From Ancylobacter sonchi (GTDB lineage: Bacteria; Pseudomonadota; Alphaproteobacteria; Rhizobiales; Xanthobacteraceae), in contig NZ_JAHBGF010000028.1 in the NCBI RefSeq assembly GCF_018390695.1, forward strand, positions 1 to 64,000: DNA of 64,000 nucleotides, given 5' to 3'. Of this stretch, positions 1 to 28,076 are shown in pieces. A model generated the notes under the pieces. It did not search any database and was not told the DNA's origin. It saw nothing but the letters and a program-made list of their open reading frames with translations. Position 1 is the stretch's first letter. Each line of letters begins with the position of its first letter. Position numbers and translations under genes: made by a program.

Positions 1-351
1 GGCGCGGGGGGTTCGGACAGCCTGTACGGCCATGACGGCAGCGACCGGTTGTTCGGCGAGAACGGCAACGACTACATGACCGGCGGCAAGGGCACCGACG
101 CCTATTATGGCGGCGCCGGCTACGACTACGCGATCCTGGAGCAAGGTAGCGGGGTCGACTATTTCGTCGACTGGAACGTGACGCGCGACCGGGTAGTGTT
201 CGACAGCGACATCTTCACCTCGATCGGAGCGGTGCTGACGGCGGCGTTCCAGAACGGCACCGACGTGGTGATCTGGGACGGCCACGACGGCATCGTGCTA
301 CAGAACGCCAAGCTCGCCGACCTCACCCCGAGCAACTTCCTGTTCGTGTAG
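1..351 (+). CDS. RTX (hemolysin-type calcium-binding repeat) protein, C-terminal part
   Basis: The reading frame is open from base 1, so the gene starts outside the window and only about 116 C-terminal residues are visible. The first 40 residues carry glycine/aspartate nonapeptide repeats of the RTX type (for example GENGNDYMTGG and GGAGYDY), which form calcium-binding beta-rolls in proteins exported by type I secretion. The last 70 residues are an acidic, hydrophobic tail of the kind that carries the uncleaved type I secretion signal (ending NFLFV). The catalytic or adhesive part of the protein lies upstream and cannot be inferred. It is read toward the mobile element and probably marks host chromosome on the far side. 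Confidence 0.85.
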   Translation, partial: GAGGSDSLYGHDGSDRLFGENGNDYMTGGKGTDAYYGGAGYDYAILEQGSGVDYFVDWNVTRDRVVFDSDIFTSIGAVLTAAFQNGTDVVIWDGHDGIVLQNAKLADLTPSNFLFV

Positions 352-710
352 CCACGATCCGCGCTCCCGCCGACATTGTTGTCATCCCAAGGCAGCACCA
401 CGGAAAATTACATTCCAGAGTTGCGAAAGTTTAACTATTCGCGGAAACGGGGATGCCATATTGAAGCGCCGCCCCTCGTCGCCCCCGCCCCCAAGCAGGG
501 TGGCGCCCGGCAGGCCGAGCGCTCCCCGCAATGCGCTCGGCCACTTACATGTGGACGTGAGCTCACCTGCCAACGCGTCTCTAAGCAAGATCCGGTTGAT
601 CGCACAATACCCAACGCGGCATGCCGCTTAGGGTCTGACACTGCCATCAGCGGAACAAAATCGGAGCGCGATGGTTCGCCTAACAACGCCTTGATCGCAC
701 GAGATCGACC
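352..710. other. Gene-free stretch between RTX gene and element
   Basis: This stretch of about 360 bases contains no reading frame with a convincing start, ribosome binding site or family resemblance. An open frame at 376-762 has poor coding character and overlaps the next gene. The left border of the dusA-inserted element should lie here or beyond the window, but no clear copy of the dusA 5' end was found. Confidence 0.4.
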
Positions 711-1058
711 ATGTCCTTCACGAAGCACCTTTCGAAGTTCAGGATTTCCGCCGCGCTGCTGATCGCGGGGTTTATGGGCGCGCCGGACAGTCAGGCGTCG
801 GCGGACGATGGCTTGGTGGACTCAAGGAAGCTCGCCGCCATCCGCGAAAAGTGGCAGATGCCGCCGGAAGCACTAGCTGATCGACTGGGAGTGCCGTTCC
901 AGGTCTATATCGCTATGGAACAGGGAGCCCAGCCTATCGAGAGCAAGCACCTGCTTGCCCTCGAAGCGATCGGCATTGATCAGTGCCTGGTGAAGCAGGA
1001 CACCCGTATGCTGGTGCCCGAGGTTCGGCTGGCGCTCGATGAGGCGGTCGAGGCTTAG
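711..1058 (+). CDS. Small helix-turn-helix-like protein
   Basis: This 115-residue protein has an unusual layout. Residues 10-31 form a hydrophobic, signal-like stretch ending in QASA. Residues 38-85 resemble a Cro/CI-type helix-turn-helix (a pattern around LAAIREKWQMPPEALADRLG, then an acidic turn and an LLALEAI helix). A secreted DNA-binding domain makes little sense, so the real start may be a downstream GTG near residue 36, or the hydrophobic part may be an accident of an upstream fusion. The ribosome binding site at the ATG is weak. It is convergent with the minus-strand phage genes, 1 base from the end of the next gene. No function beyond probable regulation can be given. Confidence 0.5.
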   Translation: MSFTKHLSKFRISAALLIAGFMGAPDSQASADDGLVDSRKLAAIREKWQMPPEALADRLGVPFQVYIAMEQGAQPIESKHLLALEAIGIDQCLVKQDTRMLVPEVRLALDEAVEA

Positions 1059-1059
1059 C

Positions 1060-1713
1060 CTAGAGCCCCATCACGCGCCCCAACAGCCCGCGGCGCTGCA
1101 CTGCCTCCGGCACGACGCCGATAGGGCGCTGTTCGATGCGGTCGCGATACACCGACGTCAGCACCACGGGGCCGCCGATGAGGTGCCGATGGGCCTCGGC
1201 CACAAGGTTCCGCATCACGCCCATAATCCGCGGCAGGTCGCCCATGCGGATGGTGTCCGTATCCGCCGGCAAGTGCATCGCCTTGTAGGCTTCCGTGCTC
1301 GCTGGGCTGGCGTGGAAAGTACCGACATCGTGAGCGACCCACGGTTCCAACCCGGCATCCGATGCAGTGGCACAGACGATGATCCGCGGTGTTACATCGT
1401 CAAACCCGACCAACACGACCAGCTGCGAACCCCGCTCACCAGCCGCGGCACGGGCAGCCTGCACGGCACGCAGTGCGTCCGGCAGGGCTTTGACGGCGTC
1501 AGCAAAGTTGCCGGCGCGCATTGAAATCGCGGTGGCGAGTGCGCCAAGTGACTCACTCGTGCCCATCACGGCAAGCGCCGCCGAGAGCTCCGGCAGCGGG
1601 AAGGATTTCGCCAGAGAGAAACGCTGGCCGGTTGCGTCGACGCCGCGAGAGTCGGTTGCGATATGAACCGCGCGGGTCGGGTGGCTTTGGGTGAGAGCGA
1701 TGATGGCCGTCAT
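1060..1713 (-). CDS. Phage protein with Ntn-hydrolase-like N-terminus
   Basis: This 217-residue protein begins MTAIIALTQSHPTRAVHIATDSRG, a strand-turn-strand pattern (beta strand, ...TDSRG...) like that of proteasome/HslV-type Ntn-hydrolase folds. Proteins of this kind occur beside tail-tip genes in alphaproteobacterial prophages. The expected catalytic Thr, Ser or Cys after processing is not obvious, so enzymatic activity is not claimed. Its ATG overlaps the stop codon of the upstream gene by 4 bases (ATGA), so the two are translationally coupled. The Ntn comparison is a fold impression from the N-terminal 40 residues only. The rest, rich in Ala/Val and ending RRGLLGRVMGL, is unrecognised. 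Confidence 0.6.
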   Translation of the reverse strand: MTAIIALTQSHPTRAVHIATDSRGVDATGQRFSLAKSFPLPELSAALAVMGTSESLGALATAISMRAGNFADAVKALPDALRAVQAARAAAGERGSQLVVLVGFDDVTPRIIVCATASDAGLEPWVAHDVGTFHASPASTEAYKAMHLPADTDTIRMGDLPRIMGVMRNLVAEAHRHLIGGPVVLTSVYRDRIEQRPIGVVPEAVQRRGLLGRVMGL

Positions 1714-1901
1714 CGATCTTTCTCCGGACTCGGAATGAAGCTGGCGCCGATGGCGAGGCCGAGAGTCAAAATGCTCGAGGCAATTGCGGCAGTGCTGCCG
1801 GTGAGGCCAATCGAGGCGACCAGGATTGCCGAAATCGGCTCGGCCGAAGCCGGCGAAACGAAGAAGGCCGCCAAGATGGCGGCCGGAACTACGAATCTCA
1901 T
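1710..1901 (-). CDS. Small hydrophobic phage protein (tail-tip-like)
   Basis: The product is a 63-residue, very hydrophobic protein with a signal-peptide-like start (an AAILAAFFVSPASA stretch), then a second Ala/Ile/Gly-rich segment ending SFIPSPEKDR. It could be a two-segment membrane protein, or a remnant of the hydrophobic N-terminal region found in phage tail-tip proteins. It sits directly upstream of and overlaps the Ntn-like gene. A gene-free gap of about 130 bases separates it from the prohead protease, which is where capsid and tail genes would be expected in a complete phage. Confidence 0.55.
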   Translation of the reverse strand: MRFVVPAAILAAFFVSPASAEPISAILVASIGLTGSTAAIASSILTLGLAIGASFIPSPEKDR

Positions 1902-2028
1902 AGATTTCCCATAGAGTTATGCGTCACAGGGAGCGCTAGGGGTCATATTCTGAATTGCAGACGCGCGCGTTGTGGGACCCCGCTGATACGAGGATCAGAG
2001 GCGACTGGACTTCTGGCCCAGCCCCCGG

Positions 2029-2589
2029 TCACCCGATCCCACGCAGCCTCATGGCGGCTTCGGCCTTTCGACGCAGGCGCTCCGCCGACGCGGCAACATT
2101 GCGTTGCCCCCCGAGGTCTGCGCTGGTGCTTTCATATGCAGGCCAACCCACAAGCGACATCTCGATGAGGTCGACATCTGTGATGGTCCTGACGGGGAAT
2201 CCAGAGGCGTCGGTGTCCCAGTCCTCCTCCACCACTCGAAAGCCGATGGAGCAGCCCCTGATGTCCCGGCGCGTTACGGTACCGATCGCCGTCTGCCCGT
2301 CTGGAGTGCTGGGGTCGGCTTCGAGCTCGAAGCGCAGCCCCCTCTCATCCTCGCGTAACTGCAATGTCCCTGCGGACACGCGCGCCAAGATCCTGCCGGC
2401 GTCGTGGTGAAGCAGGGCGAGCACGTCGGGGCTCTCTACAAGGCTGCGTCGAAAGCAGCCCGGCCTAAGTATCTCCCGGAAAGCGCCGCCGATCACAGCC
2501 GGGCTGTTGAACCGCGCGGCATAGCCGCTGATCGAAGTGCCTCGGGTCTCCGGGGCTGCCTCGGTACGGCGCTCCTGCTCATTTCCCAC
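2029..2589 (-). CDS. HK97-family prohead protease
   Basis: This 186-residue serine protease belongs to the family that trims the scaffold and capsid of HK97-like phages during head maturation. Three expected features are visible: the histidine motif ALLHHD (His61/62), the nucleophile motif GCSIGF (Ser114), and the acidic residue in DLIEMSLVGWPA (Glu143). Length is typical. It starts at GTG with an AAGG-type ribosome binding site 7 bases upstream and overlaps the preceding small gene by 11 bases. In phages it lies between portal and major capsid; here neither is present. It is therefore either a relic, or a protease acting on a helper phage's capsid (inference). Confidence 0.9.
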   Translation of the reverse strand: MGNEQERRTEAAPETRGTSISGYAARFNSPAVIGGAFREILRPGCFRRSLVESPDVLALLHHDAGRILARVSAGTLQLREDERGLRFELEADPSTPDGQTAIGTVTRRDIRGCSIGFRVVEEDWDTDASGFPVRTITDVDLIEMSLVGWPAYESTSADLGGQRNVAASAERLRRKAEAAMRLRGIG

Positions 2590-2764
2590 TGCGCACCTTC
2601 CGCTCCGCGGCTTCCAGACGTGCGAGGCGAGTGGCCATCCCGCCGCTGCGCAAAGTCAGAGCGATAGCCATCGGATCTCTATCAGTGCCTGTGAAAGTCT
2701 TGCCGCGCACAGTGATCTTCCGCGGCTTCTTGGCCGGCTTCGCGTCGGCGCGTTCAGTTGCCAT
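2579..2764 (-). CDS. Small basic hypothetical protein
   Basis: This 61-residue, strongly basic protein opens with a Lys/Ala/Pro-rich stretch (ADAKPAKKPRK), then a short TVRGKTFTGTD strand and an arginine/alanine helix (MATRLARLEAAERKVRSGK). It overlaps the genes on both sides by 11 bases, which supports expression as part of one transcript with the prohead protease. No family is recognised. The helix could be a small scaffold-like or DNA-binding segment, but this is only a guess. Confidence 0.55.
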   Translation of the reverse strand: MATERADAKPAKKPRKITVRGKTFTGTDRDPMAIALTLRSGGMATRLARLEAAERKVRSGK

Positions 2765-3338
2765 AGTAACCGGCCTCCCGCGCGTTCTTCAAAAAGACCT
2801 CGATATGACCACCATCAAACGCATTGCCCATCCAGCCGAGATTCATCGGGCGAAGCGTCGACCAGGCGATGTCTTCAACTTCGAGTTGGCTTCGCAATTC
2901 GTCGTAAGATTTTCGCTCGGCATCGAGGGCTTGCATGGCCCGGCACAAAGCCGCAACGCGACGACCGTATTCGGGCCGCACCTCGTCGCACACAAGGCGG
3001 CTTGCGCGCCCGCGCGCCTCCCGCAGGCGCTGGTCCAGGACGGTGAGGGCCGCGGTCACGTCCCGGTCAAGCTGAGAAAGCTCCGAGAGTCGACCGTGGA
3101 CGCTGGTCTGCGCGACAGTATCTTCACCTAGCAGGCTTGCGACGCCTGCGCGGTAGGCAGGCACCGGGGCGGTGGCGAGACCTTGCTCGAGCTTACGGCG
3201 CTCGCGGATGGTGGCGGTCTGCTTATCCAGCAACTCGGCGCGCTTGGCGATCAGCGCCGCATATTCCGGCACGGTGGTCAGCGGCGGCACGCGGTAAGAT
3301 TCGGCCGCCACCGCCTTGTTCTTTGACAAGAGGCCCAT
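2754..3338 (-). CDS. Hypothetical coiled-coil phage protein
   Basis: This 194-residue protein is charged and helical from about residue 25 to 165, with heptad-like stretches (AALIAKRAELLDKQTATI and LDQRLREARGRASR), and probably forms a coiled coil. The C-terminal 30 residues are glycine/asparagine-rich and likely globular. The ATG has a good GGAGG ribosome binding site 5 bases upstream and follows the stop of the previous gene without a gap. It lies in the head region of the element, where a scaffold or head-completion protein would be expected, but no family was recognised. Confidence 0.6.
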   Translation of the reverse strand: MGLLSKNKAVAAESYRVPPLTTVPEYAALIAKRAELLDKQTATIRERRKLEQGLATAPVPAYRAGVASLLGEDTVAQTSVHGRLSELSQLDRDVTAALTVLDQRLREARGRASRLVCDEVRPEYGRRVAALCRAMQALDAERKSYDELRSQLEVEDIAWSTLRPMNLGWMGNAFDGGHIEVFLKNAREAGYYGN

Positions 3339-5288: not shown

Positions 5289-5540
5289 GTGTTGAGTACC
5301 CCCATGGCCTCCCGCCGACTGGCCGATGAATATGATGCGGCTCAAGCGAGGGGGGAGGTCCGTCGACCGAACAACGAAAAAACCACTTCTGGATTGGAAG
5401 CGGTTTCAGTTACCGACATCGGCCTCACGCACAAGCAGATCCACGAAGCCCGCCAGATACGGGATGCTGAGGTGGCAAGCCCTAGTGTTGTTAGGCGGAC
5501 ACTGGACGCGCTGATTGAGGCTAGCGAGGAGCCGGCATGA
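5289..5540 (+). CDS. Small phage replication-associated protein (ParB-like fragment family)
   Basis: This 83-residue protein contains the pattern RLADEYDAAQARGEVRR, then DIGLTHKQIHEARQIRDAE and PSVVRRTLD. That pattern recurs in proteins of alphaproteobacterial phages and plasmids, often next to replication genes and sometimes described as ParB-like. It starts at GTG with a nearby GGAG; the in-frame ATG at 5304 is an alternative. It is the only plus-strand gene in the middle of the element and ends just before the iteron-like cluster and the helicase stop. A role in recognising that DNA is possible but unproven. Confidence 0.65.
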   Translation: MLSTPMASRRLADEYDAAQARGEVRRPNNEKTTSGLEAVSVTDIGLTHKQIHEARQIRDAEVASPSVVRRTLDALIEASEEPA

Positions 5541-5582
5541 TTGCTCCTGCCCGGCAGTAAACAATCGGCGGTGCTCCACCAA

Positions 5583-5717
5583 TGCGCCACCAGCGCAATT
5601 GGTGGATGGCGCTTGCGCCACCACCGATTTTTACTAAGGGCAATTTGGTGGTGGCGCAGCCGAAATTCTGAATCTCGTTGCGCCACCAATGCGCCACCAA
5701 ATTTCGGTGGTGGCGCA
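5583..5717. repeat. Iteron-like cluster: six copies of TGCGCCACCA in both orientations
   Basis: TGCGCCACCA occurs at 5583-5592, 5614-5623, 5679-5688 and 5690-5699, and its inverse TGGTGGCGCA at 5649-5658 and 5708-5717. Two hairpins result: 12-base perfect arms at 5614-5625 and 5647-5658 around a 21-base AT-rich spacer, and 10-base arms at 5690-5699 and 5708-5717. The cluster lies between the small ParB-like gene and the 3' end of the helicase-primase genes, like iterons of P4-type satellites and plasmids. A transcription terminator role for the hairpins is an alternative. Confidence 0.7.
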
Positions 5718-5721
5718 GCCC

Positions 5722-6984
5722 TTAGGCGGCCCGGCCCGGACGGTTTGCCTCGACGACCCTCACGCCCTTACGGGGCTTGCGTTCGGCATCGTCGTGATAC
5801 TCGACCTCCTCAATGACGCCGTTAGACCTCCACGCCTTGAGGATCGATGCCGCCTGCTCTGGCACGACATCGGTGTGGCGGATGACGACGTGACCCGCCC
5901 AGCGCGGTCCCCTCTTGGAGTCAGTGTAGGCATAAAGAGAACCGGTTTGCTTTCCGTCCTCGTCCACCAGGCCCTTCGCGAGTTCATCAAGGATGGTGTT
6001 GGCTATCGGTATTGTGATGGCGTCCATGGCATTCGGCGGAACCCAAGGATGAAGCACGCCGACATCGTCACCATGCTGCTCCGGCGTGCCGTTGGCGAGG
6101 CGAATAGTCTCCTTTCGAAACCACTTCGCGGCCCCCGTCGTGAGCGTCAGGTTCGCCTTCGCGTCGTCGAACCGCACGAACATATGACGCTCCGTTTCGG
6201 GCACCCCCAATACCTTCGCATCGACGTCCGACATGCTGAACAGCGTGACCACGGTGCGCGCCACGCCCACCAAGGCGCTGCCGCCGCGGGCGGCGTTCAT
6301 GTCGCCTGGTGCCGCGGATAGAGCCTTCGATACGTGGTGCACCAAGAGCACGGCGGCATTGGCCTGGCGTGCAACATCGCGCCAGATCGCGGCTGCCCAC
6401 TTCACCTCGGAGTTGGAGTTCTCGTCTCCCTCAAACGTCTCAGCGAAGGGGTCGACCACCAGCACGTCAATCCCGTTTGATTTCATCGTGGCGATCAACG
6501 TATCCGCCAACGGCAGGCGAGTGACCGTCTTCGTCTTGGGATCGGTTTGGGCGACGACGATGCTCGACGGATCTTCCGCCAGAAACAGGCGATCGGCCAG
6601 CGCGCGGCGATCAAGCTTCATTGCCCTCAGGGCGGCGGCCAGGCGCCGCTGCATTTCGTCGACGTCATCCTCGCTGTTCACCCACATGACATTGTAGGAG
6701 CCCCTTGGACGCAGCCCGCCCCACGGTTCGCCGTCGGCCATGACAAGGCCGGCCTGCAGGGTCAGCAGGGACTTGCCAGCACCCGGTGGCGCCACCAGTA
6801 CCGACAGGTGTCGGCGGATGAGCAGGCCGGGAACGATCCACTGTCGGACGGGGATTGAGGCCTCTTCGAAATCGAGGGCGCGCACCAGCTTCAGCTTGCC
6901 GGCAGTGTTATCGTTTGCAGCCTTCAGGGGCTGGAATGCCTCGCCCGGTTCGCTCTTGGACGTCAAAACATTGAGCCTTACCAT
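5722..6984 (-). CDS. RepA-type hexameric DNA helicase (AAA_25 family)
   Basis: This 420-residue ATPase has a Walker A motif APPGAGKS at residues 65-72 and a Walker B motif IDVLVVDPF at 172-180, followed by a sensor-like LLVHHVSK stretch. This is the RecA-fold layout of plasmid RepA-type replicative helicases. The C-terminal 110 residues are variable and look like a winged-helix DNA-binding domain (VVPEQAASILKAWRSNGVI). The start at 6984 overlaps the primase stop as TGATG, so translation is coupled; a longer open frame upstream is only the primase read in another frame. With the primase it forms a self-contained replication module beside the iteron-like repeats. Confidence 0.85.
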   Translation of the reverse strand: MVRLNVLTSKSEPGEAFQPLKAANDNTAGKLKLVRALDFEEASIPVRQWIVPGLLIRRHLSVLVAPPGAGKSLLTLQAGLVMADGEPWGGLRPRGSYNVMWVNSEDDVDEMQRRLAAALRAMKLDRRALADRLFLAEDPSSIVVAQTDPKTKTVTRLPLADTLIATMKSNGIDVLVVDPFAETFEGDENSNSEVKWAAAIWRDVARQANAAVLLVHHVSKALSAAPGDMNAARGGSALVGVARTVVTLFSMSDVDAKVLGVPETERHMFVRFDDAKANLTLTTGAAKWFRKETIRLANGTPEQHGDDVGVLHPWVPPNAMDAITIPIANTILDELAKGLVDEDGKQTGSLYAYTDSKRGPRWAGHVVIRHTDVVPEQAASILKAWRSNGVIEEVEYHDDAERKPRKGVRVVEANRPGRAA

Positions 6985-7916
6985 CAAGCCGCCTCCGCCA
7001 GATCGGCCATATCGGCACCCGCGCAAGCCGGTGTGACGATGGTCACCTCCGCTCCCGCGCTGTGCCAGCGCGCACCGCAGTCGTTTGCAGCGGCCAAGCC
7101 GGCGGCATCGTGATCCGCGAAGATCGTCAACGCCTCGATGCCGCCCAGCACTGGAAATGCTGAGAGGTTGTTCGCCACGAGACAGGCCCATACTGGCCGG
7201 AAGGGCGCCGCTAGGGCAGTTTCTATTCCTTCGGCGATGGCGAGCCCTGTGGTGACGGAGTCGTCCGACGAAAGCCTCACCACGCCGGTGGACGGATAGC
7301 CCTTCATGAATAGGCGATCGAGCTTGCGAGCCTGTTCGTCCAGGTAGGTGAACTGAATCGTATGGGCGTCGCCCGTCGCGGGGTCCGTCACCAGCGCGGC
7401 CATTGCCTGATCGCGCGGGTAGTAGCGCAGAGCGTCGCCGTCGTAGGAGAGCCCCCGGCTGGCCAGATATGCCTCTGCCAATGTCCCGGTGATGGGGATG
7501 CATTGCGCCCAGCGGCGAAGTACGGCCTCGCCCATCGATCGAGGCGAACGGACGATCGACAGCGGCGGTGGCGGTGCGGGGCGATCTGCCGCCGCCACGG
7601 TGCCGCCCAGGGCATCGGAAAGCCAGTCCTTCGCGGACCGTGGGTCAAGGCCGAGGCAGGCGACGACGATATCGATAGGGCTATAGCTCTGTCCCTCCGC
7701 ATGGTCGCGGATGCCGCGGTTGCTGAAGGACAGTGCGCGCGGACGCTTTGCATTGGGCAGGCCCGCGCGACGAGAAGACCGGAAGCCTGCGACGGCGCTG
7801 TAACCGGACTGGGTGCGCTTGAGACGGGGAAGGCCGAGGGCGGGCACCCAAGCGGCAAGGTCGGACAAGGCGGCGTCTTTGATGGCACGGTAGGAATTAC
7901 GCTGCGTCTGCGTCAC
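6984..7916 (-). CDS. Toprim-domain primase
   Basis: This 310-residue protein has a C-terminal Toprim fold: the glutamate motif LAIAEGIETALA at about residues 220-231 and the DxD-type motif LTIFADHDAAG at about 257-267. The N-terminal half resembles the accessory domain of phage and plasmid primases, but the usual zinc-finger cysteines are missing, so primer synthesis is inferred from the family. GTG at 7916 is chosen because GGAGG lies 8 bases upstream; the ATG at 7922 would leave a gap of only 2 bases. It is coupled to the helicase downstream and overlapped by the SpoVG-like gene upstream. Confidence 0.8.
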   Translation of the reverse strand: MTQTQRNSYRAIKDAALSDLAAWVPALGLPRLKRTQSGYSAVAGFRSSRRAGLPNAKRPRALSFSNRGIRDHAEGQSYSPIDIVVACLGLDPRSAKDWLSDALGGTVAAADRPAPPPPLSIVRSPRSMGEAVLRRWAQCIPITGTLAEAYLASRGLSYDGDALRYYPRDQAMAALVTDPATGDAHTIQFTYLDEQARKLDRLFMKGYPSTGVVRLSSDDSVTTGLAIAEGIETALAAPFRPVWACLVANNLSAFPVLGGIEALTIFADHDAAGLAAANDCGARWHSAGAEVTIVTPACAGADMADLAEAA

Positions 7917-8145
7917 GGCCATTGCCTCCGATCGCCGAGGATGCGGCGCTGGTGATGGACTGAGCGAGGTCGATGCTGAAGCTCACGGTCGCCTTCCTGC
8001 CGCGCTCGGAAGGGAAGGCGCGAGGAGAGCCGTCCGCGGCTCGTCGAATGACGACGTCGAAGATGCGCAGCCCTCCGACATCGATATCGGCATGGGCAAG
8101 CGTTCCCGATCCCGGCGGGGCCAGGCGGATGCTGAGTATCTTCAA
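7897..8145 (-). CDS. Small SpoVG-like protein
   Basis: This 82-residue protein begins MKILSIRLAPPGSG when started at the TTG at 8145, which has GGAGG 7 bases upstream; the upstream ATG at 8160 overlaps that ribosome binding site. The strand pattern (KILSIRL, ADIDVGGLRIFDVVIRR, RAFPSERG) resembles the small nucleic-acid-binding SpoVG fold seen in phage early regions. The 3' end overlaps the primase by 20 bases. Function is probably accessory to replication or early expression; sequence similarity is only moderate. Confidence 0.6.
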   Translation of the reverse strand: MKILSIRLAPPGSGTLAHADIDVGGLRIFDVVIRRAADGSPRAFPSERGRKATVSFSIDLAQSITSAASSAIGGNGRDADAA

Positions 8146-8674: not shown

Positions 8675-8743
8675 ACTTCCTCCTTCCCGCACAGCGCGCG
8701 GCTGGCGGGTCACGGTGGTGGATGAGGTGATGGTGGCAGGTGG

Positions 8744-9535
8744 CTAGGCGGCGCGGGCTGCTGGCTCGACGTAGGCGTGCAGCTCTTCGAAGATGTTCCT
8801 GGCCTTGGTGGGATCTATGACCACCTCCGACTCCCGGCCGGATGTCTCCCACAGGGCGAGAATGTGCTTTACCGGGTAATCGCAAGTCAGAACTGCGGCC
8901 CAGCTACCTCCGCAGGCGTTGCCGTTCGCGAACCGCTCTGCGGTCGCCCTGTCGCGCGACCAGGACATGCCTCGGCATCGGGCGCTCGTCACCTCGGCAG
9001 GCCTTCCCGTTCCGCGATAGATCCTGACGGTTGTCCCGGTTGTTCGGAGCGCGGCCATCGTAGCCATCTCCTCCTCGTCCATCAGAAGGGCGTGTCCGGC
9101 TTCTCGGAAATACTCCCGAAGTATGACCTTGCTCGTGGCATTAACGTAGAGTGCTCCGACCGCGTTGCCCGCGACGAACCCTTCCTTCAACAGCGCAGCG
9201 CGCACGCGCGGACCACCGGCCCGCATGTAAAGCAGAAAGTCCGGAATCTGACCCCGGCATTCACCGTCCACCGTCCAGGTAAGACTGGCTGCCGCTTCAC
9301 ATGCCTCGTCGTCATCTCGAACCTGGACGAACACAAGGTCGATGAAACGGTCGATAGCCTTCAGGTGCCAATCCATCGGGTCGTCGGAATTGCCGTGGAA
9401 CATGCCTTCGGCGCGGAGCCGGGCATGTCGGGAGACGATGCAGGCGATGGCGTCCTTGCGGAAGCGTTCGGCCTGCTCGTCTGGCGTCAGCTTCGACCAC
9501 CGGTAGGCGGCATATTCTCGATTGAAGTTCACCAT
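8744..9535 (-). CDS. ADP-ribosyltransferase-like protein
   Basis: In this 263-residue protein the C-terminal 100 residues show the ordered signature of R-S-E ADP-ribosyltransferases: an arginine in RIYRG (Arg174), a serine motif in GMSWSRDRATAERFA (residues 189-203), and an E-x-E pair in GRESEVVIDP (Glu235 and Glu237). Related domains occur in phage proteins and toxins that modify host proteins with NAD+. The N-terminal 160 residues are helical and unrecognised. The start (ATG 9535) is coupled as TGATG to the alpA stop. In an early region, a host-takeover or anti-phage role is plausible; activity is inferred from motif order only. Confidence 0.6.
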   Translation of the reverse strand: MVNFNREYAAYRWSKLTPDEQAERFRKDAIACIVSRHARLRAEGMFHGNSDDPMDWHLKAIDRFIDLVFVQVRDDDEACEAAASLTWTVDGECRGQIPDFLLYMRAGGPRVRAALLKEGFVAGNAVGALYVNATSKVILREYFREAGHALLMDEEEMATMAALRTTGTTVRIYRGTGRPAEVTSARCRGMSWSRDRATAERFANGNACGGSWAAVLTCDYPVKHILALWETSGRESEVVIDPTKARNIFEELHAYVEPAARAA

Positions 9536-9750
9536 CACGCCGCGCTCCGCAGGTCGCGCGCGGCGATGCGGGCGTCAATCCATGCGTCGACCTCGGCGCG
9601 AATGAATGCGATCCGACGATCACCGAGCGGCACAGCAGCCGGGAAAGTGCCCGCGGCCCGCCGCTTGAACAACTCGGCCCGCGAGAGACCGATTTCTCGC
9701 ACGACGTCGGCGACGGACATCAGGCGTGGCGTATTATCATTAGCCGGCAT
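9535..9750 (-). CDS. AlpA-family regulator (MerR-fold)
   Basis: This 71-residue protein has the family pattern MSVADVVREIGLSRAELFKR, RRAAGTFPAAVPLGDRRIAF and VDAWIDARI. AlpA-type proteins control excision and integrase expression in phages, satellites and integrative islands. A GGGAG ribosome binding site lies 6 bases before the ATG. It is the first gene inward of the integrase, with a spacer of about 175 bases (9751-9927) in which no gene is seen. Confidence 0.85.
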   Translation of the reverse strand: MPANDNTPRLMSVADVVREIGLSRAELFKRRAAGTFPAAVPLGDRRIAFIRAEVDAWIDARIAARDLRSAA

Positions 9751-9927
9751 ACTTAACTCCCTGGGTGGGAGGTGGCTGGGGATGGTTGCTCATGCGGGCA
9801 TCGGCGCCCGCTACGTCAAATAAGGTAACTCCGACCCAGCCGCCGCGCTATGTGCCCAATCGGGAGAAAGTCCGCGCGACGCACAAAATCGTCAGCGCGG
9901 CAGGGCTCGCAGCATGGGGCAAGCCGT

Positions 9928-10998
9928 TCACGGATCTACCTTCGGGAGCCAGCGCCAGCCGATGTACTTGTCGCCGGTCTCGCGCAGGTGTGCGTATCGC
10001 TGTAACGATTGCCAAGAGCGGTGCCCGGACACGCTTGCGGCTTGAGGGATAGTCCGCCCCATCTCAAAAAGCCGCGACACGCCTTCGTGTCGCAGGTCGT
10101 GAAAGTGCAGGTCGTCTATCCCGAGTACATGGCACGCCCGCGTGAAGGCGGCGCTGATCGCGTCAGTGGAGAATGGAAAGATGCGATCGCCCGTTCTTGG
10201 CATGGACTTGATCACGGCTAGCGCCTCTGGTGGCAGATCGACATACACATCGTTGCCGAGCTTCTGCCCAGGGTGCTTCATATCGCGTATCAAGATGCGA
10301 CTGTGGCGTTCGTCCAAGTCCGCCCAAAGCAGCCGGGTAATTTCCTCCTGACGCCTAGTGGAGAAGAGGGCGAAGAGCGCGATCTTGACCATCGGCGCGG
10401 AGTCCGGCGCGCGCGCTTGCCGCTCCGTGAAATGGATGAGGACTCGATCGAGCTCGGCGAGGGTAGGGCGCCTGTCACGCTTCTTCGATTTCGAGGTGGT
10501 GCCGAGCCGTCGCAGCACCACCAACGCCGCCTTGAATTTCTCCTTGTCCAGCGGGATGCCCCATGCAGGCTTTGCGATGTCGAAGATCGATGCCAAGTGG
10601 CTGAGATAATTGTTCACCGTTTGCGGCTGCCGTCCGCCTTCGAGCAGTCCCTGCGCGAAAGCAACTATGTCCTCGCTGCCGATTGCGGCGCTATCCATGG
10701 CGGCGAGGGGAAGTGTCTTGATGGTTCTCAGCACCTGCGCCTTGGTCTTGCCCGGCGCCTTGGTGGTCTCCTTGAGATAGCGGTCGATGGCCTCAGCCAA
10801 CGTCGCCTTCGGCACAGGGGTGAGGCCGCCGGGCCGATCCAGCTGGGCCTCGCGCCAGCGAAGCCAAGCCTTCGCTTCCCGCTCCTTGTCGAACGTCTTC
10901 GCCTCTCGATGCAGGAATTCCTTGCCGCGCTTGCGGACGATCTGCGCGGTATAGCCGACGGTGCCGTCCGACCTGCGCCGTGCTAGGATCGATCCCAT
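9928..10998 (-). CDS. Tyrosine recombinase (phage-type integrase)
   Basis: This 356-residue integrase starts MGSILARRR. The catalytic set is intact: Arg215 in STRRQEE, a beta-hairpin lysine region near 241 (KHPGQKLG), His300 and Arg303 in HFHDLRHE, His326 in SGHRSW and Tyr335 in LQRYAHL. Residues 1-55 form the arm-binding domain and 65-160 the core-binding SAM-like domain. A GTG at 11091 would add 31 residues but would place a palindromic operator-like site inside the gene, so 10998 is preferred. It lies immediately 5' of dusA and presumably integrates the element there. Confidence 0.9.
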   Translation of the reverse strand: MGSILARRRSDGTVGYTAQIVRKRGKEFLHREAKTFDKEREAKAWLRWREAQLDRPGGLTPVPKATLAEAIDRYLKETTKAPGKTKAQVLRTIKTLPLAAMDSAAIGSEDIVAFAQGLLEGGRQPQTVNNYLSHLASIFDIAKPAWGIPLDKEKFKAALVVLRRLGTTSKSKKRDRRPTLAELDRVLIHFTERQARAPDSAPMVKIALFALFSTRRQEEITRLLWADLDERHSRILIRDMKHPGQKLGNDVYVDLPPEALAVIKSMPRTGDRIFPFSTDAISAAFTRACHVLGIDDLHFHDLRHEGVSRLFEMGRTIPQAASVSGHRSWQSLQRYAHLRETGDKYIGWRWLPKVDP

Positions 10999-10999
10999 C

Positions 11000-11039
11000 G
11001 GTACAACACGCCCCGTTCTTGGTACAACATCGTTGTACC
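11000..11039. promoter_or_regulatory. Operator-like GGTACAAC repeats at the integrase start
   Basis: GGTACAAC occurs at 11000-11007 and 11021-11028, and its inverse GTTGTACC at 11032-11039. The last two form a perfect palindrome with a three-base centre. Location just upstream of the preferred integrase start and near the attachment site suggests an operator or arm-type recombinase sites. Confidence 0.55.
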
Positions 11040-11108
11040 GGAGGTTGAAAAATGGGGCAATGTCCCGAATTTCCGTGACTGATGCTGACACGCTAAGGGC
11101 CTATTAAA

Positions 11109-12131
11109 TTGCTGATAGAAAAGACAAATCTAGATATTCCAAGCTCTTGGCGATTCAGCGTGGCGCCCATGATGGACTGGACCGACCGGAATTGCCGGGC
11201 GTTCCATCGCGTGCTGTCGGCCCGGACCCTGCTCTATACCGAGATGGTCACCGCCAATGCGGTGATCCATGGCGATCGGGAGCGCCTGATAGGCTTCTCG
11301 TCCGTCGAACATCCGGTGGCGCTGCAGCTCGGCGGCTCCGATCCCGAGGCTCTGGCCAAGGCCGCCGCCATTACCGCCGAGTGGGGCTATGACGAGATCA
11401 ACCTCAATGTCGGCTGCCCGTCCGATCGGGTGCAGGGCGGCAATTTCGGCGCCTGCCTGATGCGCGATCCTGTGCTCGTCGCCGCCTGCGTTGCGGCGAT
11501 GAAGGCGGGGGTCGGTATTCCCGTCACCGTCAAGTGCCGCATCGGCGTCGACGAGCAGGACCCGGAAGTGGCGCTCGACGCGCTGGCCGACGCCGTGCTG
11601 GAGGCCGGTGCCGACACGCTCACCGTGCATGCGCGCAAGGCGTGGCTGCAGGGGCTGTCGCCGAAGGAGAACCGAGACATTCCGCCGCTCGACTACGACC
11701 GGGTCTACCGGCTGAAGCAGCGCCTGCCGCATGTGCCGGTCATCATCAATGGCGGCATCGGCTCGCTGGAGGAAGCGGAAGCGCATCTCCTCCATGTCGA
11801 CGGCGTCATGCTCGGGCGCGCCGCCTATCAGCAGCCGGAGCTGCTGCTCGATGTCGATTCGCGGCTGTTCGGCGCGGAAGACCCGCATGCCGACGGGTTC
11901 TCCGCCGTCGCCGCCTTCGAGCCCTACATCTCCGCGCATCTCGAGGCTGGCGGAAGGCTGCACGACATCACCCGCCACATGCTCGGCCTGTTCACCGGCC
12001 GTCCCGGCGCGCGAGCCTATCGCCGCCGGCTCGCCATCGAGGGCGTGAAGCCGGAGGCGGGGCTGGACGTGCTGCGGGCCGCGGTCGACGAAGTCCGCCG
12101 CGCCGAGGAACGCCGGGCACTGGTGGCATGA
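11109..12131 (+). CDS. dusA: tRNA-dihydrouridine(20/20a) synthase
   Basis: This 340-residue FMN enzyme reduces uridines 20/20a in the tRNA D-loop. Family motifs are present: SVAPMMDWTDRNCR at the FMN-binding start, YTEMVTANAV, NLNVGCPSDRVQ with the catalytic cysteine, VTVKCRIGVD, HARKAWLQGLSPKENR and INGGIGS. The first 13 residues (starting at TTG 11109, with AAGGG 8 bases upstream) are unlike other DusA proteins and have no ATG, consistent with a new 5' end supplied by the inserted element. An in-frame stop at 11094 excludes a longer form. The TauE/SafE gene follows with a 4-base overlap. Confidence 0.92.
   Translation: MLIEKTNLDIPSSWRFSVAPMMDWTDRNCRAFHRVLSARTLLYTEMVTANAVIHGDRERLIGFSSVEHPVALQLGGSDPEALAKAAAITAEWGYDEINLNVGCPSDRVQGGNFGACLMRDPVLVAACVAAMKAGVGIPVTVKCRIGVDEQDPEVALDALADAVLEAGADTLTVHARKAWLQGLSPKENRDIPPLDYDRVYRLKQRLPHVPVIINGGIGSLEEAEAHLLHVDGVMLGRAAYQQPELLLDVDSRLFGAEDPHADGFSAVAAFEPYISAHLEAGGRLHDITRHMLGLFTGRPGARAYRRRLAIEGVKPEAGLDVLRAAVDEVRRAEERRALVA
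11150..11180. other. Probable attachment site within the 5' end of dusA
   Basis: dusA is a frequent phage target and recombination falls in the segment coding for the conserved WRFSVAPMMDWTD. Upstream of that segment the coding sequence is AT-rich and unlike dusA, which indicates element-derived DNA. The exact core cannot be fixed because no second copy was found in the window. Confidence 0.5.
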
Positions 12132-13706: not shown

Positions 13707-13933
13707 CGGGCGGACTCGCGGCTCTGGGACACGCGACTCCGGGACTCGCGGCGGTTCTGCCGGGCGAGGCGGTTCATGATCGCGCGGCGCGCGGTTTCGT
13801 CTAGGCTGGGCCAGGCGCCGATCTCCTCGAGAGTGCGTCCGCAGCCGAGGCAACGATGGCCGTCGGCATCGAGTGCGCACACTCCGATACAGGGGGTAGA
13901 AACACGGTTGGGCATTGGAATCGGGCGGTTCAT
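13703..13933 (-). CDS. DUF1289 small cysteine-motif protein
   Basis: This 76-residue protein shows the DUF1289 signature TPCIGVCALDADGHRCLGCGRT, four cysteines likely binding a metal, followed by the helical segment EEIGAWPSLDETARRAIM. Function of the family is unknown. The ATG overlaps the cobS stop by 4 bases, and the stop overlaps the protease start by 4 bases, so all three are co-translated. An internal ATG at 13915 is an alternative start. Confidence 0.85.
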   Translation of the reverse strand: MNRPIPMPNRVSTPCIGVCALDADGHRCLGCGRTLEEIGAWPSLDETARRAIMNRLARQNRRESRSRVSQSRESAR

Positions 13934-14724
13934 CCGATCGACCGCGCGAAGATAAGCGCCCCCAGAAGGAACGCAATCTCGACGGTCAGCGCCGCCGCAC
14001 CGGCGACGTCCCCGGTTTGCCCGCCAAATTTGGCCGACGCAAGGCGGACGACGCCGCTCCACGCCAATGCGGCGACGAGAAGGCCGCTGAGGAATTCCAC
14101 CCAACCCATTGTCATTAAAACGGAAATAGCGGAGATCGCGATGGCGGCGATCCCCGCCTTCCACAGTGTGGCGCGCGAGGGGCGACCGGCGCGGCCGGCG
14201 AGCCCGTCCGGGCGGGCGGAGGGTAGGGCGGCGATCAAGCCGAGCGCCGCCAGCCGGGACAAGGTCGCGGCGGCGAGCAGGGCGCCGGCGGCACCGGCCC
14301 ATGAAATCGTGGCCAATCCTTCGAGGGCGCCGATGCGCAGCAGCGTCGCCAGCAGCAGTGCCACCGCGCCGAAAGTGCCGAGCCGGCTGTCGCGCATGAT
14401 GGCGAGGCGCCGCTCGCTATTCATGCCGCCGAGCCCGTCGGCGGTGTCGGCGAAACCGTCCTCGTGCAGCGCCCCGGTGGCGAGGGTCATCGCCCCGACC
14501 GCCAGCGTCGCGGCGATGAAACCGGGCAGGACGGTCAGGCTGGTGAGGTGGACGATGAGGCCGATCAGGCCGATGAGGGCGCCGGCGAGCGGGAAGCAGG
14601 GGCCGAGCCGGTCGAGGTCGGGAGGGCCGTCCTCCGGTTCCCATGAGAAGCGCGGCACCGGCAGCCGTGTGAGGAAACGCAGCGTCGCCGGAAGGTATAT
14701 GAGTGTGGTTGGCGGCAGAGGCAT
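13930..14724 (-). CDS. cobS: Adenosylcobinamide-GDP ribazoletransferase
   Basis: This 264-residue integral membrane enzyme joins adenosylcobinamide-GDP to alpha-ribazole, the last step of the cobalamin nucleotide loop. Diagnostic motifs are RLPVPRF near the N-terminus, GALHEDGFADTADGLGG and IMRDSRLGTFG, followed by hydrophobic helices. Length is typical. It is the first gene of a three-gene coupled unit and lies next to bluB, which makes the lower ligand, and near cobT, which activates it. Confidence 0.93.
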   Translation of the reverse strand: MPLPPTTLIYLPATLRFLTRLPVPRFSWEPEDGPPDLDRLGPCFPLAGALIGLIGLIVHLTSLTVLPGFIAATLAVGAMTLATGALHEDGFADTADGLGGMNSERRLAIMRDSRLGTFGAVALLLATLLRIGALEGLATISWAGAAGALLAAATLSRLAALGLIAALPSARPDGLAGRAGRPSRATLWKAGIAAIAISAISVLMTMGWVEFLSGLLVAALAWSGVVRLASAKFGGQTGDVAGAAALTVEIAFLLGALIFARSIG

Positions 14725-14739
14725 GGGATGCGGCTTCGC

Positions 14740-15372
14740 TCAGCGCTGCAGGAAGACGTCGCCGGGCGGCAGGCGGTGCTCCCAGCCGGCGCGCTCCAGC
14801 TCCGGGATATCGGAGGGCGCGCGGGGATAGCCTATGCACAGATGGGCGATGAGCCGCCAGTGCCCGGGCACCTCCAGTGCCGCCGTCACCGCCGGCGCAT
14901 CGAGGATCGATACCCAGCCGAGCCCGATCCCCCGCGCCGCCGCCGCCAGCCACAGCGTGTGCACGGCGAGGACGGCGGAATAGCCGAGGGTCTCGGGCAT
15001 GGTGGCGCGGCCAAGGCCATGGCCGATCTGCGTCTCGGTGTCGACGAAGACGGCGACCTGCTCAGGCGCATCGTCGAGCCCGGCGAGCTTCAGCCGGGCA
15101 TAGAGGCTGGCGCGTTCTTCCTCCTGGGCGGCGAGGGCCTCGGCGTTGCAGGCCTCGAAGATGGCGCGGATCCGGGCCCGCCGCGCCGCCGAGGCGACCC
15201 GCACGAAGCGCCAGGGCTGGCTGAGCCCGACGCTCGGCGCCTGATGGGCCTGACGGAGCAGGGTATCGAGCAGCCCTTCCGGCAGCGGCCGGGTCTCGAA
15301 ATGCCGGACGTCCCGCCGCCAGTGGAACAACTGGTCGAGTTCGCTGCAGAAGGTGGGAGACAGGGCGCTCAT
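14740..15372 (-). CDS. bluB: 5,6-dimethylbenzimidazole synthase
   Basis: This 210-residue flavin enzyme cannibalises reduced FMN to give dimethylbenzimidazole, the lower ligand of vitamin B12. Recognised by FHWRRDVRHF at the start, APSVGLSQPWRFVRV, ERASLYARLKLAGLDDAPE and GIGLGWVSIL, as in the nitroreductase-fold BluB family. A GGGAAG ribosome binding site precedes the ATG. It is transcribed toward cobS with a 15-base gap, consistent with one operon. Confidence 0.93.
   Translation of the reverse strand: MSALSPTFCSELDQLFHWRRDVRHFETRPLPEGLLDTLLRQAHQAPSVGLSQPWRFVRVASAARRARIRAIFEACNAEALAAQEEERASLYARLKLAGLDDAPEQVAVFVDTETQIGHGLGRATMPETLGYSAVLAVHTLWLAAAARGIGLGWVSILDAPAVTAALEVPGHWRLIAHLCIGYPRAPSDIPELERAGWEHRLPPGDVFLQR

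Positions 15373-26831: not shown

Positions 26832-28076
<1,245 letters not shown>

Follow-up and report, generated by a model that had tools for sequence, protein, structure and literature searches.

Organisation of the locus

The window, the whole 64,000-nucleotide stretch of Ancylobacter sonchi DNA that was analysed, begins at the first base of contig C21 (NZ_JAHBGF010000028.1) and carries an element adjoining a gene taken as dusA, which lies on the plus strand from 11109 on and owes its label both to a preliminary description of this DNA and to its own sequence. The neighbouring minus-strand genes encode a tyrosine integrase (9928-11091; Pfam Phage_integrase), the AlpA-like regulator or excisionase of the element (9535-9750; Pfam Phage_AlpA, E = 3.4e-11), a Toprim primase (6984-7922; Pfam Toprim_3, E = 2e-12) and a 420 aa RepA-type helicase (5722-6984; phrog_25693). 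AAA_25 is the only Pfam profile matched by the helicase (E = 1.3e-41), and its fold is that of a RecA-type core, the nearest solved structure being RSF1010 RepA (Foldseek E = 3.3e-14). The helicase and primase genes abut at 6984 and both reading frames are open, which bears out the helicase-primase pair of the preliminary description with corrected coordinates and both genes on the minus strand. In some relatives, L040 and L094 among them, primase and helicase seemingly form one long frame (746 aa in L094, 698 aa in another example), against two genes in the window.

The element also encodes a prohead protease, the distance from integrase to prohead protease being approximately 9 kb, and no terS was identified among the proteins scanned. 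A comparison of window positions 1-3000 with 10951-11300 for a left attachment repeat found neither an exact 11-mer nor a match of 22 in 30 bases; as dusA islands carry imperfect repeats (PMC4482086), this search is compatible with an attachment repeat being present. At positions 1-1058 the contig opens inside a frame that, judged by eye, resembles an RTX-type repeat protein.

An array of 10 bp iterons occupies the gap between the stop codons of the minus-strand helicase gene and a small plus-strand gene (5289-5540). For this small gene no Pfam profile reached E = 0.001, and PHROG gave just a weak match to a methyltransferase family (E = 5e-4), so that its earlier designation as 'ParB-like' is not supported. 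The word TGCGCCACCA occurs exactly six times, as direct copies at 5583-5592, 5614-5623, 5679-5688 and 5690-5699 and as inverted copies at 5649-5658 and 5708-5717, thereby confirming the four direct and two inverted copies reported previously. A seventh site at 5572-5581 on the plus strand, TGCTCCACCA, differs by one mismatch, and was both read from the sequence and found by motif search. The copies at 5614 and 5649 are the left and right arms of a central inverted pair, whose perfect 12-base arms (5614-5625 and 5647-5658) around a 21-base AT-rich spacer are likewise as previously described; those at 5679 and 5690 form a tandem pair spaced by 11 bp, and that at 5708 lies beside the helicase stop codon. 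Iterons thus flank an AT-rich stretch (5624-5648) on both sides. Between the arms of the central pair lies CCCTTAG followed by TAAAAAT; the CCCTTAG core, listed on the minus strand at 5634-5640 beside a T5/A5 run, is the counterpart of a CCCT(0-4)AG motif counted over the arrays of relatives.

With one further copy at 27856, the window contains seven matches to TGCGCCACCA, a number reached by none of 100 dinucleotide shuffles (mean 0.27). Across the whole 5.8-Mb genome the word is present 90 times and the reversed control word 56 times, and close-set groups of six copies are found at only two places, the window array and C13:146427-146561. The concern, raised by the preliminary description, that the word might be common genome-wide is answered by this clustering in the window and a second prophage alone.

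The second of these places lies in a prophage on contig C13 that has tail and capsid genes, an AAA_25 helicase and, behind the latter, an array of its own with ten TTCCACCCCC sites. A second array, found 1.3 kb beyond the first (locus L035, G000 C13:136000-155999, at approximately 10386-10566), is identical to the window array over 162 bases and adjoins a stretch encoding the last 55 residues of the window helicase, with 54 of the 55 identical. The block corresponding to 5524 to 5890 contains three differences, as opposed to 17 in the 102 bases of 5439-5540, and the exchange therefore looks recent. The C13 copy may be a leftover after replacement of the module, or a captured origin. A further block shared between window positions 8735-9895 and L035 positions 13819-14979, 94% identical, represents additional mosaic exchange.

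Arrays behind related helicases

Close relatives of the helicase were collected from species genomes (six loci) and viral contigs (49 loci, 17 of the contigs being 35-49 kb long), giving 56 loci with the window. An array exceeding its shuffles was present within 270 bases past the helicase stop in 47 of the 55 testable loci, a count which includes the window and six near-duplicates, leaves aside L059 (no motif result) and uses a cut-off set after the motif results had been seen. No array was found at this place in the other eight (L037, L048, L049, L073, L083, L086, L088 and L091). In a scan of whole loci, 35 of the 56 had their strongest word cluster at the end of the helicase; the same scan located word clusters farther downstream of the helicase in L088 (1.9 kb), L037 (6.0 kb) and L091 (6.8 kb), the L088 word agreeing with that of its relative L084. 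A wider family search of 296 genomes gave matches in 95, and the best 30 places were made into loci; excluding the window and the incomplete L104, arrays above shuffles were present in 25 of 28, of which L093 and L094 are close relatives and the others 27-44% identical. Homologous open frames overlap the array region in 14 loci, that of L040 beginning at the helicase stop, and iterons may therefore sit inside a coding gene in L040 and 13 other loci.

The preliminary description had proposed a search of relatives for the same word at the same place; the place recurs, and the word mostly differs. The words differ between elements, examples being TGCGCCATTC, TGCGCCAAAT, TGCGTCAAAT, TGCGCGAGTT, TGCTCCACCT and TTCCCCGGT, with TGC at one end as their commonest anchor. 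Among 41 non-redundant arrays, a direct pair 10-12 bp apart was found in 34 (21.5 expected), and the full inverted-direct-direct-inverted order with such a pair in 23 (1.7 expected); the core CCCT(0-4)AG was present in 72 of 109 arrays, near-duplicates kept, against 25.5 expected. The word is element-specific, and the layout and CCCT..AG core tend to persist. The helicases of L040 and L043 are 97-98% identical, with T and C, respectively, at word position 8 in all seven sites.

Within the genus, the array itself is present in two of 30 genomes, the window's own genome counted. A same-genus relative, G268, with a helicase 83% identical, shares the word and the placement of all seven sites; 67 of 70 iteron bases and 69 of 77 spacer bases are identical to those of the window, compared with 282 of 517 third positions and 882 of 1041 first and second positions of the helicase codons.

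A predicted winged helix and its association with the word

An AlphaFold model built on 45 aligned sequences (mean pLDDT 84) shows the end of the helicase as three principal helices with a wing of two strands, and a separate model of the C-terminal part had a pLDDT of 80. Most of the top Foldseek matches to the C-terminal model were winged-helix regulators, all weak (E of 0.1 or worse). The C-terminus is accordingly predicted to form a winged helix (residues ~316-412, encoded at 5749-6039 on the minus strand), which is proposed as the reader of the iterons. In the model, residue 402, an arginine in the window (codon 5779-5781, minus strand), sits at the tip of the wing.

This residue tracks G at word position 2 (G2). 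In a column-by-position scan of a first set of loci, residue 402 and word position 2 formed the second strongest pair, and a second set, of remote relatives, then agreed; set 3 was thus gathered after the idea had arisen in set 1 and recurred in set 2. Set 3 comprised 90 loci, taken in part as the best 80 of 165, with 44 remaining without near-duplicates and 33 having arrays; its words and C-terminal tails were viewed before the final tally. The final register ignores word positions 1-2 and was chosen after a first register had been seen to put some arrays in the wrong phase, and the wing residue was read as that six before the strand valine, not by alignment column. At a score of at least 2.0, G2 accompanied Arg402 in 18/18 cases and a different residue in 0/1 in set 1, 10/10 and 0/3 in set 2, and 14/15 and 0/6 in set 3 (Fisher p = 1.3e-4, each sequence being treated as one count), where the lone exception, L210, with Arg and no G2, has an unsure register. 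Over all sets this amounts to 42/43 and 0/10; lowering the cut-off to 1.6 gives 53/59 and 0/11, several of the six misses looking like wrong registers.

When the wing residue was read by alignment column at a score of 2.0, the totals became 41/42 and 1/11, and set 3 was unaffected. The mode of reading matters for L084, which has M by column and R by distance and so becomes by column a non-Arg helicase with G2, and for L058 (score 1.96), which has R by column and P by distance. Omitted from the tallies were loci with unalignable C-termini (L095, L096, L109, L110, L116, L118-L121 and L129), L134 as a duplicate of L102, and six near-duplicates in set 1; L093, L094 and L035 were not entered.

A tree built from the helicase cores of 70 loci (cut-off 1.6), with 11 non-Arg tips, has nine changes of the Arg state, compared with 10.5 for shuffled labels, and 14 changes at word position 2. 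As the changes in Arg state are scattered much as shuffled labels are, common descent is unlikely to be the cause of the link. The link is also visible in close pairs: L151 has Arg and the word TGCTCCACC, and L190, at a core distance of 0.14 from it, has Gly and a word with T in position 2; L106 (Arg, TGCCGCACCT) and L111 (Gly, TTCCGCACCT) differ in the same manner. An open scan of all helicase columns against all word positions, excluding eight doubtful registers (L047, L056, L058, L074, L075, L098, L162 and L210), placed R402 and position 2 at the top (z = 10.8), the best core column for that position reaching 4.2. The runner-up was F184 with position 8 (z = 10.3), and many core columns come near the top z for word positions 4, 8 and 9, which is taken as a probable effect of shared descent.

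In Mantel comparisons, word distance correlated with both halves of the helicase and did not favour the C-terminus (partial r = 0.16, p = 0.024) over the N-terminus (0.19, p = 0.002), and a sliding window peaked at residues 381-415 (0.25, 0.23); these correlations are weak and were given no weight. The N-terminal regions of L048 and L053 are 100% identical and their C-termini 61%, with apparently different words, the L048 array being barely above its shuffles (16.4 against 16.3), and L053 and L063 have a common word with C-termini 88% and N-termini 67% identical; as a domain swap, this trio is suggestive only.

Plasmids and a named phage

The helicase search also matches 92 plasmid records, of which the four examined are circular and from Alphaproteobacteria. 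Each carries an array just behind its helicase gene and, by eye, fits the association with G2: L218 and L220 have Arg with G2, and L217 and L219 have Gly without it. Two Microvirga plasmid helicases, 68% identical overall, are paired with the words TGCCCCACCT and TTCCCCACC. Plasmid L219 also has an annotated repC, and L218 encodes a protein with weak winged-helix matches that may be another initiator; these plasmids are therefore no proof of the module replicating alone. In three circular plasmids neither the minimum nor the maximum of GC skew fell at the array, and the array was absent from the one named phage inspected (L221, one of six matches). No origin annotation was present in the five records examined, the plasmid tables listing protein genes only.

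Proposed function and alternatives

The computed features, namely the array, its recurrent place and layout, the drift of its word, the predicted winged helix and the association between Arg402 and G2, make it very probable that the array is the origin of the dusA-linked element, bound by the element's own helicase through its C-terminal winged helix, melted, loaded and primed. The RepA-type helicase would physically bind the iterons by means of this domain, with Arg402 of the wing contacting G2 of the word, and would assemble on the array as a hexamer. Melting would follow in the AT-rich sequence that surrounds the central CCCTTAG; the helicase would load itself onto the strands, and the Toprim primase encoded next to it would lay primers. 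Most likely, then, the array serves as the helicase's own origin, recognised in the way in which the Rep proteins of SaPIs, which are of other helicase types, recognise theirs. Points that weigh against this reading are the eight of 55 loci without an array at the place, the Mantel results, the L040 and L043 pair, the high-scoring core columns of the open scan, the dependence of L084 on how the wing residue is read, the GC skew of the three plasmids and the weakness of the Foldseek matches to the C-terminal model. The candidate origin put forward in the preliminary description is in this way supported by the arrays of relatives, the clustering of the word and the Arg402 association; that description had missed the element-specific nature of the word, the winged helix as its likely reader and the copy in the second prophage. 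That the window copy is active, and that the element replicates itself, as was also suggested there, is inferred.

Iterons often serve as regulatory sites too, and the location of the window array between convergent genes would suit an operator or partition-like site read by another element protein, such as AlpA, the product of the 83-aa gene or a repressor, with a role in regulation or segregation, not as an origin. Such a function appears improbable, since in a clustering of the ORFs around the arrays, with no separate treatment of the primase, the helicase, itself the search query, is the only cluster present in 56 of 56 loci; clusters in 51-53 loci resemble shadow frames of the helicase, the next cluster is present in 25, and the association with Arg402 implicates the helicase. 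Less probable still is that the inverted words merely form hairpins, acting as terminators or structured RNA or DNA, and change together to keep pairing. The array strand does fold strongly as DNA (z = -9.7), and two terminator-like stems are found at 5564-5583 on the minus strand, where 0.3 were expected; yet tandem direct copies are in excess among the arrays as detailed above, no T-run follows either main hairpin on reading the sequence (the stem scan being blind to the hairpin with the 21-base loop), and pairing offers no reason for the Arg402 association. Nor would that association be expected of a mere terminator, the role which the preliminary description had set against its own reading.

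A further possibility is that the prophage has decayed and the array is what is left of its origin, so that origins of this class would be real and the window copy inactive. This explanation overlaps with the favoured one, doubting only the activity of this copy, and is unlikely, if considerably less so than the other two. The element looks short from integrase to prohead protease, and the left attachment repeat was not found in the first 3 kb. Against this, the helicase and primase frames are open, and the array is conserved beyond the level of third codon positions in the same-genus relative.

No account of iterons following an AAA_25 helicase gene turned up in searches of open-licence literature; an initiator helicase that loads itself at an origin right behind its gene, the favoured reading here, is described for SaPI Rep proteins of other helicase families (PMC7581432). 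It is possible, though on balance doubtful, that RepA-type RecA-fold helicases with an added winged helix make up a large and so far unrecognised group of initiators that load themselves, spread over phages, prophages and plasmids of Alphaproteobacteria, whose origin words drift freely within a code that can be read in part, wing Arg specifying G2, and that the C13 prophage has captured the origin of the dusA element beside its own. Were this so, the helicase of one element could set off replication from the DNA of the other, or be titrated by it. With the rule that an element-specific iteron array stands right behind an AAA_25 helicase gene, origins would be located in many phages, prophages and plasmids at once, and the link between wing residue and base would provide a testable case of an initiator and its origin changing specificity together.

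Comparison with known replication systems

RSF1010 RepA shares the helicase fold and is the best PDB match, but the matched chains, at 242-254 residues, are probably too short to include an added domain, and in RSF1010 recognition of the iterons falls to RepC, a protein distinct from the helicase. Lambdoid phages similarly have differing iterons matched to their initiators, although lambda O is not a helicase, and the alpha protein of P4 is a helicase of another type. Gram-negative PICIs carry an alpA gene. In layout the module resembles the order of primase, rep and origin described for PICIs (PMC6092414), as here too the genes for a primase and a putative initiator helicase are followed directly by iterons around an AT-rich stretch. 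In SaPIs, the C-terminal domain of the Rep helicase reads an iteron origin immediately downstream of the gene, and the Rep helicases named there relate to DUF927 or D5/Primase_Cterm proteins (PMC7581432); the window helicase is, by contrast, a RecA-fold AAA_25 protein. The relatives collected here also differ in coming from viral contigs, which may be phages or satellites, in 49 of 55 cases. In the PLE of Vibrio satellites, the DNA-binding domain of RepA and the ori covary and swap as a module (PMC8263062); that system has an initiator with a RepA_N domain and three semi-palindromic iterons of ~30 bp, situated in a noncoding region apart from repA, whereas the array in the window lies directly behind the gene for its proposed reader.
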